Below, piece after piece: positions 47,440-55,045 of a stretch of DNA of 64,000 nucleotides. How positions within the stretch are numbered: the stretch's first letter is position 1; every line of letters starts with the position of its first letter. The notes under the pieces were generated by a model, which did no database searches, was not told the DNA's origin, and was given only the letters and a program-made list of their open reading frames with translations. The stretch is from positions 1-64,000 of the forward strand of contig CAIURC010000028.1 of the NCBI GenBank assembly GCA_903901425.1, given 5' to 3'. The DNA is from an uncultured Spartobacteria bacterium. Lineage in GTDB: Bacteria; Verrucomicrobiota; Verrucomicrobiia; Chthoniobacterales; Chthoniobacteraceae. The translations under genes were made by a program, and so were the position numbers.

Positions 47440-48246
47440 TCAAGCGCCTGCACGTTTCACTTCATCCCAGAGGTGGTCGAGTTTTTCGAGGCCGAGCGAT
47501 TCGAGGGGCAGGCTGCGTTCCTGGGCGAGCGCCTCCATTTTTCTGAACCGGCTTGAAAAGCGTTCGACTGCGCCCTGCAACGCGACCTCGGCGTCGGTGC
47601 CGGTTTTGCGAGCGAGGTTGACCACGGAGAACAGGAGGTCGCCGATTTCTTCCTCGATCCGGCAGGGATCGCCGCCGAGTTCGGCTTCGACTTCGCGAAG
47701 TTCTTCCCGGATTTTTTCGAGGACAGGCGGGAGGGAATCCCAGTCGAACCCGATTTTGGCGGCTTTTTTCTGGGTTTTTTGGGAGCGGATAAGAGCCGGA
47801 AGGCCTTTGGAGATTCCCTCCAGAAGGGACTCGGTGGTGTGTCCTTTTTCGGCTCGCTTGATTTCGTCCCAGCGCACCAGAACCTCGTCGGAATTGGCGC
47901 ACTGATCCGTGCCGAACACATGGGGATGGCGGCGGACGAGTTTTTCGCAAATTTCATGGGCAACCGCATTGAGATCGAACCGGCCTTCTTCAGTCGCGAT
48001 TTGGGCGTGGAAAACGACCTGAAGAAGGAGGTCGCCGAGTTCTTCGCGGAGGTTGGCGTCGTCCTGGAGGTTGATGGCGTCAATGACCTCGTGCGCTTCC
48101 TCCAGAAGGCCTGCGCGCAGGGAGGCATGGGTTTGTTCCCGGTCCCATGGGCAGCCATCGGGAGCGCGAAGATGTGCCACCACGAGGCGGAGCCGTTCGA
48201 GCGGGGGCAATGAGGCGGAAGGAGCGGGACGCATGATGGCGAGCAT
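47440..48246 (-). CDS. mazG: Nucleoside triphosphate pyrophosphohydrolase MazG
   Basis: 268 residues from ATG 48246 (ATG 48234 alternative). It has two MazG domains. The first has APDGCPWDREQTHASLRAGL, LLEEAHEVIDAI and LREELGDLLLQVVFHAQIA (EExxE...ExxD metal site). The second has LREVEAELGG and IEEEIGDLLFSVVNLARKTG. KIGFDWDS is the usual inter-domain loop. The enzyme hydrolyses NTPs/dNTPs to the monophosphates and cleans the nucleotide pool. It is the last gene of the sigma operon, 52 bases after the HtrA-like gene, and converges on the CLC gene. Confidence 0.95.
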   Translation of the reverse strand: MLAIMRPAPSASLPPLERLRLVVAHLRAPDGCPWDREQTHASLRAGLLEEAHEVIDAINLQDDANLREELGDLLLQVVFHAQIATEEGRFDLNAVAHEICEKLVRRHPHVFGTDQCANSDEVLVRWDEIKRAEKGHTTESLLEGISKGLPALIRSQKTQKKAAKIGFDWDSLPPVLEKIREELREVEAELGGDPCRIEEEIGDLLFSVVNLARKTGTDAEVALQGAVERFSSRFRKMEALAQERSLPLESLGLEKLDHLWDEVKRAGA

Positions 48247-48298
48247 CCTTCCGCGAAAAAACCGGGAGGCGCAATTCCTGAAAACAGCGCCGCCGCGT

Positions 48299-49384
48299 TC
48301 AGCGCGTGCAGTCGACGCGGACGGCACCCGGGGTAGCGGCCGGCGTTGTGGAAGGGACGGCTGATGTTGTGGGCGCCGCAGCCGGTGGCGCTGCGGGCGT
48401 GACGCGGAGTTCGAGCGTTTCCTCGTTCCGCTGAACCCGGATGGGAAGCGGGTTTCCAATGGAAAGGTAAAAGGAGGCGTTGAGAACGTCCTCGACGGAG
48501 CGGATCGGATGGGAACCCATCTGAAGGAGGCGGTCGCCTTTCTGGATGCCAGCCAGTGCTGCGGGCCCGTCTGCAGCCGTTGCCAGAACCTCGGCCGTCG
48601 AATGGACATCCTTCAGGTCCAGTCCCAGCCATGCGGTGCGGAGTTCGCCAAAACGGGTGTAGTCGGTCCGCAGCTTTTCAGCGGCTTCCACCGGGACGAT
48701 GAACGCGGCAGACCCGGCTTCCATGCAGGACACCAGCATTCCAACCAGATGCCCATTCATGTCGAGGACTGGTGCCCCGGATTCACCTTCCTGCACCGGG
48801 AGATTCGCCCGGAGATGGCCAACGCCAAAATGACGGCCAAGGTACTTGAGATCAAACCCGGCCAGAGTTCCAAACGCGGGTGTCAGCGGGAGATCGAGTG
48901 GAAACCCGATCGCAACCACCGGCGTTGCGACCGGCAGATCCTTGGAACTGCCCTTGGGCAGGCAGGGGGTCTGGGCCTCGATTTTCAGAAGCGCCACGCC
49001 GCACCGGGGATCGGCGGCGAGCCGTCGCGCAGGCAGCCGTTTTTCCTCATGGCATACCACGAGGTCCGTGCTCTGGCCACCCACGGAGTACGAGGTGACC
49101 AGGGTGCCGGCGGTGTCGATGAAAAAACCGGTGCCAGACAGCGGGCCGCGGGTGTCGGTGGATTCGACTCGGGCCACGGCGTTTTTGCATTTCTCGAACA
49201 CGGCGCGGACCTCGCGCGAGATCGCTTCTGCGGAGCTGCCTGAGAAGGAGGGAGTCAGGGCGGGGGCTTGGGCGTGAACCCGTGCCAGAACGGGAAAGAG
49301 GAGCGGAAACCCGAGTGCGCAGATGCCCAGCGGTCCCAGACGCCGGACAGGCAGTGCGGGATTAGAAGCTAAAAGAGGGTTCAT
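48299..49384 (-). CDS. HtrA/DegP-like protein lacking catalytic His and Asp (pseudoprotease), with PDZ
   Basis: 361 residues. An N-terminal hydrophobic anchor (about 18-38) is followed by a trypsin-like domain (about 55-230) and a PDZ domain (about 240-325; AALAGIQKGDRLLQMGSHPI). Against DegP, the catalytic His in TNNHVV becomes Ser100 (VTSYSVGG), and the Asp in DIAL becomes Gly129 (CGVALLKI). The Ser is kept (Ser202, GESGAPVLD). A Ser without its His/Asp partners should not cleave, so a binding or sensing role is likely. Its first 23 bases overlap the end of the upstream membrane-protein gene, which follows an ECF sigma gene. Confidence 0.85.
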   Translation of the reverse strand: MNPLLASNPALPVRRLGPLGICALGFPLLFPVLARVHAQAPALTPSFSGSSAEAISREVRAVFEKCKNAVARVESTDTRGPLSGTGFFIDTAGTLVTSYSVGGQSTDLVVCHEEKRLPARRLAADPRCGVALLKIEAQTPCLPKGSSKDLPVATPVVAIGFPLDLPLTPAFGTLAGFDLKYLGRHFGVGHLRANLPVQEGESGAPVLDMNGHLVGMLVSCMEAGSAAFIVPVEAAEKLRTDYTRFGELRTAWLGLDLKDVHSTAEVLATAADGPAALAGIQKGDRLLQMGSHPIRSVEDVLNASFYLSIGNPLPIRVQRNEETLELRVTPAAPPAAAPTTSAVPSTTPAATPGAVRVDCTR

Positions 49385-49835
49385 AGCTGGCGGGCCGGGG
49401 ATCGATCACGTATCTCCGGACCGGAACCGTTCTTGCCCGGTTCTGGCGGAGGAACTGTTCGTTGGAAAGGGCGTGGGGATCGGCGGAGTGCTGTCCGGCA
49501 GTGCGCGCTGCGGCGGTTTGAAACGCTGAGCTCTGCAATGGGGGCCGCGCAGCAGCCATGGTGCGTGCGGGGGCCGGATCCGGAAACGCGGTCTGGATGG
49601 TGGCGATGCCGCCGAGGAGCAGGCACGCCATGGCGCCTGCAAACTGCACGGGGCTCATGCTGTGGGTGCTGAACAGGGTCTGGATCCGGTCCAGCGCAAT
49701 TTGGAACACGGACCGGCGCAGGAGTTCGTTCCGCTGGCGGTCGTGAATCCTGGCCAGCAAATCCCCGTAGTATCCTTCAGGGGGCTGCTCAAAACGCTTG
49801 AGTCGAAGCAGGGCGCGGAGTTGCTCGTCGTTCAT
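49362..49835 (-). CDS. Small membrane protein, putative anti-sigma partner
   Basis: 157 residues, no named family. A charged helical N-terminus (MNDEQLRALLRLKRFEQPPE, then DLLARIHDRQRNELLRR) precedes one membrane helix (about residues 62-80, FAGAMACLLLGGIATIQ) and a Pro/Ala-rich periplasmic tail. This layout, and its place 15 bases after the ECF sigma gene, fit a membrane-bound anti-sigma factor. No zinc-binding ZAS motif is seen. It overlaps the next gene by 23 bases, so it is translationally linked to the HtrA-like protein. Confidence 0.75.
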   Translation of the reverse strand: MNDEQLRALLRLKRFEQPPEGYYGDLLARIHDRQRNELLRRSVFQIALDRIQTLFSTHSMSPVQFAGAMACLLLGGIATIQTAFPDPAPARTMAAARPPLQSSAFQTAAARTAGQHSADPHALSNEQFLRQNRARTVPVRRYVIDPRPASYEPSFSF

Positions 49836-49850
49836 GGAAACAGAGGGGGG

Positions 49851-50477
49851 TTAGCTCTGGTGGAATTCGCTGAGGAAATTCTGGAGCTGGCGGTGCGCAT
49901 AGAACAGACGGGACCGGACGGTCCCCTCGGAGACACCCAGGACCCGGGCGATGTCGGCATGCGGCATGCCTTGAATGTCGAACATGGTCACCACCGCGCG
50001 GTGATCCGGAGTCAGCTTTTGCATGGCCTCGTTCAGGCGGACCTGAAGCTCTTTGAGGTCGGTTTCCCGGACCGGGGTGGAGGATGCGGTCAGTTCAAGG
50101 AACTCTTGGTCGTTCTGGATCTGGGAATCCACATCATCCAGACTCATCTGGAACCTCCGGCCCCGTTTCTTGAGGTGGTTGATGGTCATATTGACCGCAA
50201 TCGAATGCATCCACGTCGGGAAACTGGACCGGCCCCGGAACCCACCCAGAGAACGGTAGGCCTTCGCCCAGACGTCTTGCAGCAGGTCGTTGGTGTCCTC
50301 GTGGTTGGAGGTCATGTGGTACACCAGACCGTAGAGTTTCGGGCTGTGTTTGAGCACCAACCGGTCAAATGCCGCCGAGTCGCCCTGCTGGGCGCGCGCC
50401 ACCCAGGCGTCGTCCTCCTCCCGTGCACTGTCCCGGGTGGGTTCCTGGATCGATTCCCGGTTTGAGTCCTGCTCCAT
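49851..50477 (-). CDS. ECF-type RNA polymerase sigma factor
   Basis: 208 residues from ATG 50477 (MEQDSNRES); a low-complexity in-frame extension reaches 50663. Region 2: AFDRLVLKHSPKLYGLVYHM, DTNDLLQDVWAKAYRSLGGF and FPTWMHSIAVNMTINHLKKR. Region 4: MQKLTPDHRAVVTMFDIQGM and HADIARVLGVSEGTVRSRLF. It belongs to the RpoE-like group. It heads an operon of four genes: sigma, membrane protein, HtrA-like protein and mazG. The gene order resembles the SigmaE-RseA-DegS envelope-stress circuit. The stop is close to the next start, so translation is probably coupled. Confidence 0.93.
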   Translation of the reverse strand: MEQDSNRESIQEPTRDSAREEDDAWVARAQQGDSAAFDRLVLKHSPKLYGLVYHMTSNHEDTNDLLQDVWAKAYRSLGGFRGRSSFPTWMHSIAVNMTINHLKKRGRRFQMSLDDVDSQIQNDQEFLELTASSTPVRETDLKELQVRLNEAMQKLTPDHRAVVTMFDIQGMPHADIARVLGVSEGTVRSRLFYAHRQLQNFLSEFHQS

Positions 50478-50666
50478 GCCGTCCCGACTTCTAGCAGGCT
50501 CCGGGAACGGGGCGAGCGCTGTTTGGAGTTGGGACGCATTCTGGAGCGCATTCTGGGGCGTATGCTGGTGAGCATGGGCCGGCCCAAGGGGAACCGGAAT
50601 CGAGGGAGCCATGTGTGCCCAGAGACTCGTCTTTGCGCTGAGAGTGGAGGCGGCGGCTGTCATGGG

Positions 50667-51476
50667 TTACTCCTCGGAATCCCGGCCCCGCAGCGCCAGG
50701 AGAAGATGCAGCAGGTTGCCCAGGGCCGCCACAAATGCGGCCACGTAGGTCAGCGCGGCGGCGTCCAGAACCCGGTTCACACCCACGGCTTCCGGCCCGG
50801 CATTCACAATCCCCATCTCGCCCAAGATCACCTTGGCTCGGCGGGACGCATCAAACTCGACCGGGAGCGTGATCAGCTGGAACACGGCCAGGATCCCGTA
50901 ACACATGACCCCCAGTTTGATCAGGCCCGTGATCTGGAAAAAGAAACCGCCCATCACGACAAACGGGAGCATCTGGGAGGCAAACATCGTGACCGGCACC
51001 AGCGCCATCCGCGCCCCGAGCGGGGCATAGGCGCGCGCATGCTGGATGGCGTGCCCGGCCTCATGCGCGGCGATCCCCACCGCCGCCACCGATGGCGTCC
51101 GGTAAACCTCCGAGGACAGGCAGAGCCGCTTCGCGCCCGGATCATAGTGGTCGCCCAGCATCCCGTTGATCTCCACCACCGAAACATCCCGGATCCCGGC
51201 GGCATCCAGAATGTCCTGGGCGGTTTCGGCTCCGGTCCGGCCCGAATCCACCGGGACCTGAGAGTACCGGCCAAAGGCGCTTTTCACCCGGAACTGCGCC
51301 CAGAGCCCCAGCAGCATCGGCGCAATGACCAGCAGGAGGTAGGTGCCGAGCCCGGGGCCGGATTGGGTCGATGCTGCCAGGGAAACGGGCAAATCCCCCG
51401 CAGAGAGAGTCCCCAGAAAAGCAGCCGGGATCGGACCAGTGAGAGAAAAAGCGATGGGAAGAATGTCAGCAGGCAT
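50667..51476 (-). CDS. Membrane zinc metallopeptidase, YugP family
   Basis: 269 residues from ATG 51476. A first membrane segment (about 43-60, LGTYLLLVIAPMLLGLWAQ) precedes a peptidase part with HYDPGAKRLCLSSEVYRTPS and the zinc-binding HEAGHAIQH. More membrane helices follow (MLPFVVMGGFFFQITGLIKL, LAVFQLITLPVEFDAS, and a C-terminal helix). These are hallmarks of the Zn_peptidase_2/YugP family of integral-membrane peptidases. Substrates are unknown in most bacteria. It lies just upstream of the sigma operon on the same strand but with about 190 bases between starts and stops. Confidence 0.9.
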   Translation of the reverse strand: MPADILPIAFSLTGPIPAAFLGTLSAGDLPVSLAASTQSGPGLGTYLLLVIAPMLLGLWAQFRVKSAFGRYSQVPVDSGRTGAETAQDILDAAGIRDVSVVEINGMLGDHYDPGAKRLCLSSEVYRTPSVAAVGIAAHEAGHAIQHARAYAPLGARMALVPVTMFASQMLPFVVMGGFFFQITGLIKLGVMCYGILAVFQLITLPVEFDASRRAKVILGEMGIVNAGPEAVGVNRVLDAAALTYVAAFVAALGNLLHLLLALRGRDSEE

Positions 51477-51697
51477 AGCCAAACGTGAAGGTTTCCGGGT
51501 TCTTTGACAATGAGGTGGGGCAACCGTTCAAAGGAAAGTCGGCATCAGGGCGGGAAAAGGGCGCATTCCATCCGCCTGTTCCTCAGGAGGTGCAGGGAAT
51601 GGCCCCCCCCTCTTTCCCCCTCCCCCCTTCCCATCGATTTTTTTCAGGCCGGATTTTGTTTCCTGCCAAAAGGTGGACCCGGCAAACTCAGACAAGG

Positions 51698-52402: not shown

Positions 52403-53743
52403 TTACCGGACGAGGCAGGGTTTTTTGGGGTTAAACTGCCAGCCCGGGATGAGAAACTGCATGGCCACCGCGTCGTTCCGGTCGTTGAGATCCATGGAGT
52501 TGTAGAGGCGGTGAGCCGCTTCGAGTTGGGGCCGGTCGATGGTGACCCCGAGTCCCGGAGCCTCGGGAACTTGGATGTGCCCGTTCCGGATTTTGAGCGG
52601 ATCCTGAGTGAGGTGCTGGCCATCCTGCCAGATCCAGTGGGTGTCGATTGCGGTGATGGTTCCGGGCGCGGCCGCGGCCACGTGGGTGAACATGGCCAGG
52701 GAGATGTCGAAATGGTTGTTGGAATGGGAACCCCAGGTCAGACCCCAGTCATGGCAGAGTTGCGCTACCCGGACGGAGCCCTGCAGGGTCCAGAAATGGG
52801 GGTCGGCGAGGGGAATATCCACGGACTGCAGCATGCAGGAGTGGCCCATCTGGCGCCAGTCGGTGGCGATCATGTTGGTGGCGGTCCGCAGACCCGTGGC
52901 GCGTCGGAATTCGCTGAGGATTTCGCGGCCTGAAAATCCGTTTTCAGCCCCGCAGGGATCCTCGGCGTAGGCAAGAATGTCGTGCCGGTTTTTGCAGAGG
53001 GCAACGGCTTCGGCGAGGGACCATGCGCCATTGGGATCCAGCGTGATCCGGGCCCCGGGAAACGCGTGGGCGAGCGTTTCAATGGTTTCCATCTCCTGAT
53101 CCCCGCGCAGAACGCCGCCTTTGAGTTTGAAGTTGGTGAACCCGTACCGTTCCTGGGCGGCCTGCGCCTGCCGGAGGATGGATGCGGAATCCAGCGCCTC
53201 CTCGTTCCGAACCTCGGCCCAGGCGTCCCCGGTTTCCGAGCGGTACGGGAGCGTGGTTTTCCGGCGGTCACCGATGTAGAAGAGGTAGCCGAGCATTTCG
53301 ACCTCGGTCCGCTGCTGGCCTTCGCCCAGGAGGGCAGCCACGGGGACCCCGAGGAACTGTCCGAGCAAGTCGAGCAACGCGGATTCAAGCGCGGCGACGG
53401 CGTGGATGGTGATGCGCAGGTCGAATGTCTGGAGGCCACGTCCGGCCTGGTCGCGGTGCGCAAAGGTTTCGCGGACGGACCGGAGCAGGTTCTGGTAGGT
53501 GGCGATGGGTTTGCCGAGGAGGAGCGGGGCCGCTTCCTCCAAGGTTTTGCGGATGGTTTCGCCGCCGGGCACCTCGCCAAGGCCGATGTGTCCCGCGTTG
53601 TCGTGAAGCAGGACGATGTTCCGGGTGAAAAACGGGGCATGGGCGCCGCTGAGATTGAGCAGCATGCTGTCCTGCCCGGCCACGGGAACGACCTCGAGGC
53701 GGGTGAGAACGGGGGATGCGTTTTTTGAGGTGGCGGGATTCAT
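52403..53743 (-). CDS. gudD: Glucarate dehydratase
   Basis: 446 residues, the same as E. coli GudD. Enolase-superfamily enzyme converting D-glucarate to 5-keto-4-deoxy-D-glucarate. It has the KxK base pair in [13 protein letters not shown] and metal ligands in [21 protein letters not shown] and ATNMIATDW. The His-Asp dyad region is [20 protein letters not shown]. The N-terminal [16 protein letters not shown] loop matches glucarate specificity. It is the last gene of gntR-kdgD-transporter-gudD, 6 bases after the transporter stop. Confidence 0.95.
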
Positions 53744-53749
53744 GGGAAA

Positions 53750-55045
53750 TCAGCGGTGGCTGGGCTTGGTGCGAAAGACGAGGAGCGCGGCGAGGATGGA
53801 GGCGATGGAGAGCCCGTAGAGGCCGCCTTGGATGGAGCCGGTGTGTTTCTCCAGGAACCCGAATGTGGCGGGTGCGACGAAGCCGCCGAGGTTGCCGAGG
53901 GAATTGATCAGGGCGAGGGCGGGTGCGGCGATCTGCGGGGGAAGCGAGTTCTGGGGGATGGGCCAGAACAGGGAGGAAGCGGCCTTGAATCCGAGTGCGG
54001 CAAAGCAGACGGCCACAAAGGCGAACGTGGGTGAGCCGAGGGTGGACAGGAACATGCCGGTGGCCGCGATGAGTAGCGCCAGTGCCACCCAGGCCTGCTG
54101 GTGGCGCCACCGGGCTGCGGCGGCGGCAAAGCCGTACATGGCTGCGATGGAGAGAATCCAGGGGATCGAGTTGAGGCAGCCCACTTGGAACTCCGTGAGG
54201 CCGCCGATTTTTTGGATGATGGACGGGAGCCAGAACGTGGCGGCGTAAATGGTGAGCTGGATGGCGAAGTAGATGAGGCAGAACAGGAGGAGCCGCGGAT
54301 CCCGGAGGAGGGTCAGGAGCGGGGGATGCGGGTTGCCCGCGGGGTGCTCGGCAGCGATGGCGTCCTGGAGCGCCTGTTTCTCGGCGTCGGAAAGCCACGG
54401 GGCATCTGCGGGCCGGGACCGGAGCTGGGTCCAGACCACGCCGCAGAGGAGCACGGAGGCGAGGCCTTCCACCAGAAACATCCATTGCCAGCCTTTGAGG
54501 CCAAAGCCGCGGAGCTGGAGGAGCGCGCCAGAGACCGGGCCGGAGAGAATGGAGGCGATGGCGGACCCGCTCAGGAAGACGGCGGTGGCCTTGCCGCGTT
54601 CGGCTTTGGGCAGCCAGAGGGTGAAGTAATAGATGACGCCCGGGAAAAAACCGGCCTCAGCCACGCCGAGCAGAAACCGGAGCGTGTAGAACTGGGGCCG
54701 GTTCTGGATGAACGCCATGAGCGTGGCGGCGATCCCCCAGGTGAGCGTGATCCGGGCCAGCCATGCCCGGGCGCCCACCCGTTGCAGGAGGAGGTTGGAG
54801 GGGACCTCAAACAGGGCGTACCCGATGAAAAAAAGGCCCGCGCCGAATCCGTACGCCGCCAGGTCGATATGGAGATCGGCCCGGAGATGGTTTTTGACGA
54901 ACCCGATGTTCACCCGGTCGATGTAGTTCAGGATGAACATCACCACGAACAGCGGCAGGACGCGGGCTTTCACCTTCGCAACCGCGGTGCTGAGTTCGGG
55001 AGCGGAGACAGCGGGCTGCTCCGGGTGGACGGGGGGCCGTGCCAT
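53750..55045 (-). CDS. MFS transporter, glucarate/anion:cation symporter type
   Basis: 431 residues, 12 membrane helices in the pattern of the ACS family (GudP, GarP, ExuT). The signature VMFILNYIDRVNIGFVKNHL opens helix 1, followed by YALFEVPSNLLLQRVGARAW and LRFLLGVAEAGFFPGVIYYF, all typical of this family. It imports D-glucarate, or a similar hexarate, with protons. Placement between kdgD and gudD with 6 and 17 bases of spacing supports this substrate. The specific sugar acid is inferred from context. Confidence 0.9.
   Translation of the reverse strand: MARPPVHPEQPAVSAPELSTAVAKVKARVLPLFVVMFILNYIDRVNIGFVKNHLRADLHIDLAAYGFGAGLFFIGYALFEVPSNLLLQRVGARAWLARITLTWGIAATLMAFIQNRPQFYTLRFLLGVAEAGFFPGVIYYFTLWLPKAERGKATAVFLSGSAIASILSGPVSGALLQLRGFGLKGWQWMFLVEGLASVLLCGVVWTQLRSRPADAPWLSDAEKQALQDAIAAEHPAGNPHPPLLTLLRDPRLLLFCLIYFAIQLTIYAATFWLPSIIQKIGGLTEFQVGCLNSIPWILSIAAMYGFAAAAARWRHQQAWVALALLIAATGMFLSTLGSPTFAFVAVCFAALGFKAASSLFWPIPQNSLPPQIAAPALALINSLGNLGGFVAPATFGFLEKHTGSIQGGLYGLSIASILAALLVFRTKPSHR

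Follow-up and report, generated by a model that had tools for sequence, protein, structure and literature searches.

A class-wide verrucomicrobial ECF sigma gene cluster with a predicted HtrA pseudoprotease and a putative anti-sigma factor bearing a PDZ-ligand-like C-terminus

In the RpoE-RseA-DegS-RseB circuit of E. coli and the AlgU-MucA-AlgW-MucB circuit of Pseudomonas, an ECF sigma factor has an adjoining gene for a single-TM partner, and the circuits also involve a periplasmic HtrA-fold protein with one PDZ domain, outer-membrane proteins (OMPs) ending in YxF, and RseP. The E. coli protease DegS is switched on by the C-termini of OMPs and cleaves RseA after RseB has left RseA (PMC8103513). 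HtrA pseudoproteases have been described as well, and in magnetotactic bacteria the pseudoprotease MamO activates MamE non-catalytically (PMC4794232). ECF circuits and HtrA pseudoproteases are therefore already known, separately. In a collection of open-access papers that we searched, no work joined Verrucomicrobia, anti-sigma factors and HtrA or PDZ proteins.

Here we describe a locus in a 64,000-nucleotide stretch of DNA (the window) from an uncultured Spartobacteria bacterium. It shares with the RpoE and AlgU circuits the ECF sigma factor, the adjoining gene for a single-TM protein, the HtrA fold with one PDZ domain, OMPs ending in YxF, and RseP. It differs from them in that the gene for its HtrA member, very probably dead as a protease, belongs to the sigma cluster, that the partner would itself supply the PDZ ligand with its C-terminus, that RseB is missing from the window's family, and that no anti-sigma domain was recognised. 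Like MamO, the HtrA-like protein would be an inactive scaffold retained for a non-catalytic job; MamO, however, keeps H116 and D149, its nucleophile is Thr, and it has a transporter domain and binds metal; no sigma factor or PDZ-ligand partner has been described for it. RseB and MucB shield an anti-sigma factor in the periplasm, as we propose for the HtrA-like protein, but they have an unrelated fold and sense lipid or LPS, and their family, PF03888, gave no match in the window's genome or in the 24 family genomes searched. Finally, P. aeruginosa has the periplasmic protein MucE, with a C-terminal WVF that serves as ligand for the PDZ domain of an HtrA; MucE acts in trans to activate AlgW, whereas here the putative anti-sigma protein itself carries the ligand-like tail.

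Gene order and its conservation

The genes lie on the minus strand in the order PF04298 peptidase, ECF sigma factor, single-TM protein, HtrA-PDZ protein (hereafter pseudo-HtrA) and MazG (Table 1), with the last bases of the TM gene overlapping the start of the HtrA gene by about 20 bases.

Table 1. Features of the sigma locus, in positions of the window
Feature	Position	Strand	Details
MazG nucleotide pyrophosphohydrolase	47440-48246	minus	Pfam MazG; local neighbour only
HtrA-PDZ protein (pseudo-HtrA)	48299-49384	minus	361 aa; Pfam, HMMER alignment, AF2 model
Parts of pseudo-HtrA			signal-peptide-like N-terminus; trypsin-2 fold, residues ~55-245; one PDZ domain, residues ~250-330
Single-TM protein, probable anti-sigma factor	49362-49835	minus	157 aa; TM helix at residues ~62-83
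Conserved C-terminal peptide of the TM protein, proposed PDZ ligand	49362-49418	minus	YVIDxRPxSYEPxFSF-stop
ECF sigma factor, regions 2 and 4	49851-50477	minus	open frame reaches 50663
Putative membrane zinc metallopeptidase	50667-51482	minus	PF04298 (Zn_peptidase_2)

The sigma protein matched PF04542 (Sigma70_r2) and PF08281 (Sigma70_r4_2) above the Pfam cut-offs, with the region-3 family absent among its matches, and scored 109.9 bits against the sigma70-ECF model TIGR02937 (cut-off 42.9). Against the RpoE equivalog TIGR02939 it scored 127.1 bits, below the cut-off of 236.15. The open frame begins with a 62-residue stretch (50478-50663, minus strand) that is absent from most orthologues; since most of them align only from about residue 62-83 onwards, the likely start is the ATG near 50477. 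An RpoE-like promoter motif (GGAAC...GTC) was found in none of 30 regions upstream of the sigma gene, and a looser version in 16, compared with 11.7 in shuffled sequences, so that such a promoter is without support.

To the question of how widely the cluster is kept, genome contigs gave no match when queried with a single protein and gave matches when queried with an alignment. We found pseudo-HtrA orthologues in 31 of the 38 genomes of the order Chthoniobacterales, and in the fetched loci of this order the genes for sigma, TM protein and HtrA stand in the same order and orientation, except that the sigma gene is missing on one contig and that the TM gene of one locus (L031) was recognised by profile alone. 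Across the class, the TM-protein profile matched in 148 of 188 genomes, the sigma gene adjoins the TM gene in 113 of 115 loci, and an HtrA gene lies beside this pair in 75 loci. Among the bacteria concerned are Chthoniobacter flavus Ellin428, an isolate that belongs to this order, and, we infer, Akkermansia-like and Methylacidiphilum-like genomes of the class. Outside the class, the sigma-TM pair was found alone, without HtrA, at three loci, where the TM proteins end in FEY, EEK and FEY. We also assembled a second sample of 64 loci, taken from named genome records after any copies of the first set had been removed.

The preliminary description of this DNA had read sigma, TM protein, HtrA-PDZ protein and mazG as a four-gene order with mazG as the operon tail. 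The first three genes are indeed conserved together (31 genomes of the order, 75 loci of the class). The fourth is not: mazG is near the cluster in just 2 of 115 loci, and within the order only in the window, which rules it out as a part of the circuit. The second occurrence is in the fetched stretch around the cluster of L222, a locus from a distant family (f13), and the sharing is probably a coincidence. Of 31 Chthoniobacterales loci, 12 have the PF04298 peptidase gene immediately upstream of sigma, an arrangement seen at no other tested locus of the class; the peptidase is a possible accessory and a candidate cutting protease for the sigma circuit. Farther along the same strand, at 52403-55045, the translations by eye resemble an enolase-superfamily protein of the glucarate dehydratase type and an adjoining MFS transporter, likely a pair for sugar-acid uptake.

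Catalytic residues and PDZ domain of the HtrA-like protein

Pseudo-HtrA matched the Pfam families Trypsin_2 (61.2 bits, cut-off 27.6) and PDZ_2 (37.7, cut-off 27), and its AF2 model (pLDDT 85) was best matched by DegP and DegQ and also by peptide-bound DegS. It is not a DegS by the equivalog TIGR02038, against which it scored 58.4 bits, below the cut-off of 422.95. All 31 orthologues of the order keep the W-x-G (W252, G254) of the loop at the entry of the PDZ domain.

The columns of the catalytic triad were read from an HMMER alignment of pseudo-HtrA to solved DegP-like and MucD chains. S100 aligns with the His of 'TNNHV', G129 with the Asp of 'RSDVAVLK', and S202 with the nucleophile position of 'GNSGGP', in agreement with the earlier reading that Ser100 and Gly129 replace His and Asp while Ser202 is kept. 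Four HtrA paralogues from the same genome carry H, D and S in those columns, so that misalignment is not the cause of the missing His and Asp. Nor is their loss a matter of chance, since Gly129 is invariant in the 31 orthologues, in which the His column is never His. Among the 75 HtrA-bearing loci of the class, His and Asp were found in none, and the 64 loci of the second sample likewise contain neither. Because His and Asp are absent from all copies class-wide, pseudo-HtrA appears to be an old, maintained pseudoprotease, and judging from its sequence it is very probably unable to cut.

The weight first placed on the retained Ser202 did not hold up. This position is Ser in only 4 of the 31 orthologues of the order, in 9 of the 75 class loci (the window and eight others) and in none of the 64 loci of the second sample, and in most orthologues it is Gly, Ala, Ile or another residue. 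Those nine loci could be cited in favour of an active protease that uses Ser202 in some unusual catalytic arrangement, but given the replacement of this residue in most orthologues and the lack of His and Asp in every one, we give this reading almost no credence. At two loci (L167 and L168, from genus g31 of family f14, by inference Akkermansia-like), the protein beside the sigma-TM pair is a strongly degenerate HtrA-like protein and the TM protein ends in IEM.

The TM protein and its C-terminal tail

In the TM protein a basic, conserved N-terminal helical region (LLRLKRxEQPPxxY) is followed by a single TM helix, then by a linker that varies and an end that is conserved; in the window, its disordered tail ends RYVIDPRPASYEPSFSF. 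Its sequence gave no significant match in Pfam or the PDB. The AF2 model, with a low pTM of 0.28, has three helices followed by the TM helix, where the domain of class I anti-sigma factors (ASDI) is a three-helix bundle with a fourth helix, and it had no Foldseek match. The protein combines a single TM helix with a gene beside an ECF sigma gene, which is the context of class I anti-sigma factors, and it would probably be an anti-sigma factor with a cytoplasmic N-terminus and a periplasmic tail.

The consensus of the tail is ...RYVIDxRPxSYEPxFSF, and the window's protein ends in FSF. Of the TM proteins at the 75 HtrA-bearing loci, 67 end in F, 6 in Y and 2 in M, and 56 have F, I, L or V at position -2. 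The second sample was still more uniform, with F last and F, L, V or I at -2 in 64 of 64. As a background, 528 other long frames of the same loci end in F in 2.7% and in F or Y in 4.4%. Peptides with aromatic residues at positions 0 and -2, as in YQF and WVF, fit the PDZ domains of DegS and AlgW (PMC8545111). The tail thus matches the type of C-terminal ligand taken by these domains, which suggests that it is a PDZ ligand, and this conserved ligand-like C-terminus gives a concrete basis, at the level of sequence, to the earlier idea that the PDZ domain of pseudo-HtrA may bind or shield the TM protein. It is very improbable that the tail is conserved just because its gene runs into the HtrA start codon: the two genes share about 20 bases in the window and could overlap in 54 of the 75 loci, but in the other 21 the HtrA frame stops short of the TM gene and the tails still end in F or Y (19) or M (2), which largely rules out an overlap artefact.

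We then compared the tail with the presence of HtrA on a sigma tree of 112 loci, of which 72 have HtrA and an F/Y tail, 26 have neither, 12 have an F/Y tail without an adjacent HtrA, and 2 have HtrA and a Met tail. The tail does not depend on pseudo-HtrA everywhere, since 12 of the 38 loci that lack an HtrA beside the pair end in F or Y. Seven of these belong to one family (f23; L186 and L225-L230, by inference Opitutaceae-like), in which a longer TM protein has hydrophobic-x-hydrophobic-K-F or a similar sequence at its end. In a sister genus (g4) within the window's own family, the HtrA orthologue has been lost, the best genome hits scoring like ordinary HtrAs, and the Phe end has been lost too (QP, AK, SK and QQ; n=4). 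The tree holds only six to seven independent HtrA contrasts; the tail follows HtrA in one to three of them (mean 2.3) and never goes the opposite way, and with so few events the phylogenetic sign test is not significant. The association is supported in one direction only: loci with pseudo-HtrA have a hydrophobic tail end without exception, and in nearly all of them it is aromatic.

A proposed circuit and its rivals

Taken from the sequences, the gene order, the loss of His and Asp and the hydrophobic-x-Phe tail, together with the predicted HtrA-PDZ fold, point to an inactive HtrA in the position that RseB or DegS holds beside the anti-sigma protein in E. coli. We propose that an RseA-like anti-sigma protein would have its tail held by the PDZ domain of pseudo-HtrA and would in this way be shielded from proteolysis. 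Unfolded outer-membrane proteins with YxF ends would compete for the PDZ domain and free the tail. The first cut of the anti-sigma protein might then fall to an active HtrA paralogue or, at loci that have one, to the PF04298 protease, and sigma would be released by RseP together with cytoplasmic proteases. Several of the parts are in place. Nearly all the BamA copies read from relatives have YQF or YKF at the end, so that OMP ends of the tail's type exist in these cells; RseP was found in 23 of 23 relatives searched; and active-type HtrA paralogues that keep H, D and S are encoded elsewhere in the window's genome.

For a class-wide verrucomicrobial ECF sigma circuit in which the PDZ domain of pseudo-HtrA shields the anti-sigma tail, we see about even chances. 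Shielding is the simplest reading, and its main rival is co-activation, in which pseudo-HtrA would bind the anti-sigma tail and deliver it to, or trimerise with, an active HtrA paralogue, promoting the cut as MamO does for MamE. This has both the MamO-MamE precedent (PMC4794232) and the active paralogues of the window's genome in its favour. However, the cluster has no gene for an active HtrA, and our analysis gave no sign of hetero-oligomers. Moreover, the PDZ domain of DegS is used for activator peptides rather than for substrate. On balance we regard co-activation as unlikely.

We would rate no higher the view that pseudo-HtrA works in the periplasm as a chaperone or as a sensor that binds OMPs, its gene simply accompanying the sigma pair as an autoregulated target, while the tail serves other proteases. 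HtrA proteins are known chaperones (PMC12826053), the BamA of these genomes ends in YQF, and family f23 keeps its F tail without an adjacent HtrA, all of which would fit. Yet the close succession of sigma, TM and HtrA genes in many families, and a TM protein ending in F, Y or M at 75 of 75 HtrA-bearing loci, argue for a direct link between the two proteins. The tail could also bind an active HtrA instead of pseudo-HtrA.

The shielding proposal can be carried one step further, to an inverted DegS circuit in which an ancient pseudo-HtrA senses outer-membrane stress as OMP C-termini compete with an anti-sigma C-terminus that mimics them, and control is exerted by release and not by cutting. We offer this fuller version tentatively, as a possibility that falls somewhat short of even chances. 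If true, it would mean that a protease fold that does not cut controls the envelope-stress response and has been kept for this across much of a bacterial class. It also provides a peptide-level hypothesis for a phylum whose sigma circuits are nearly undescribed.
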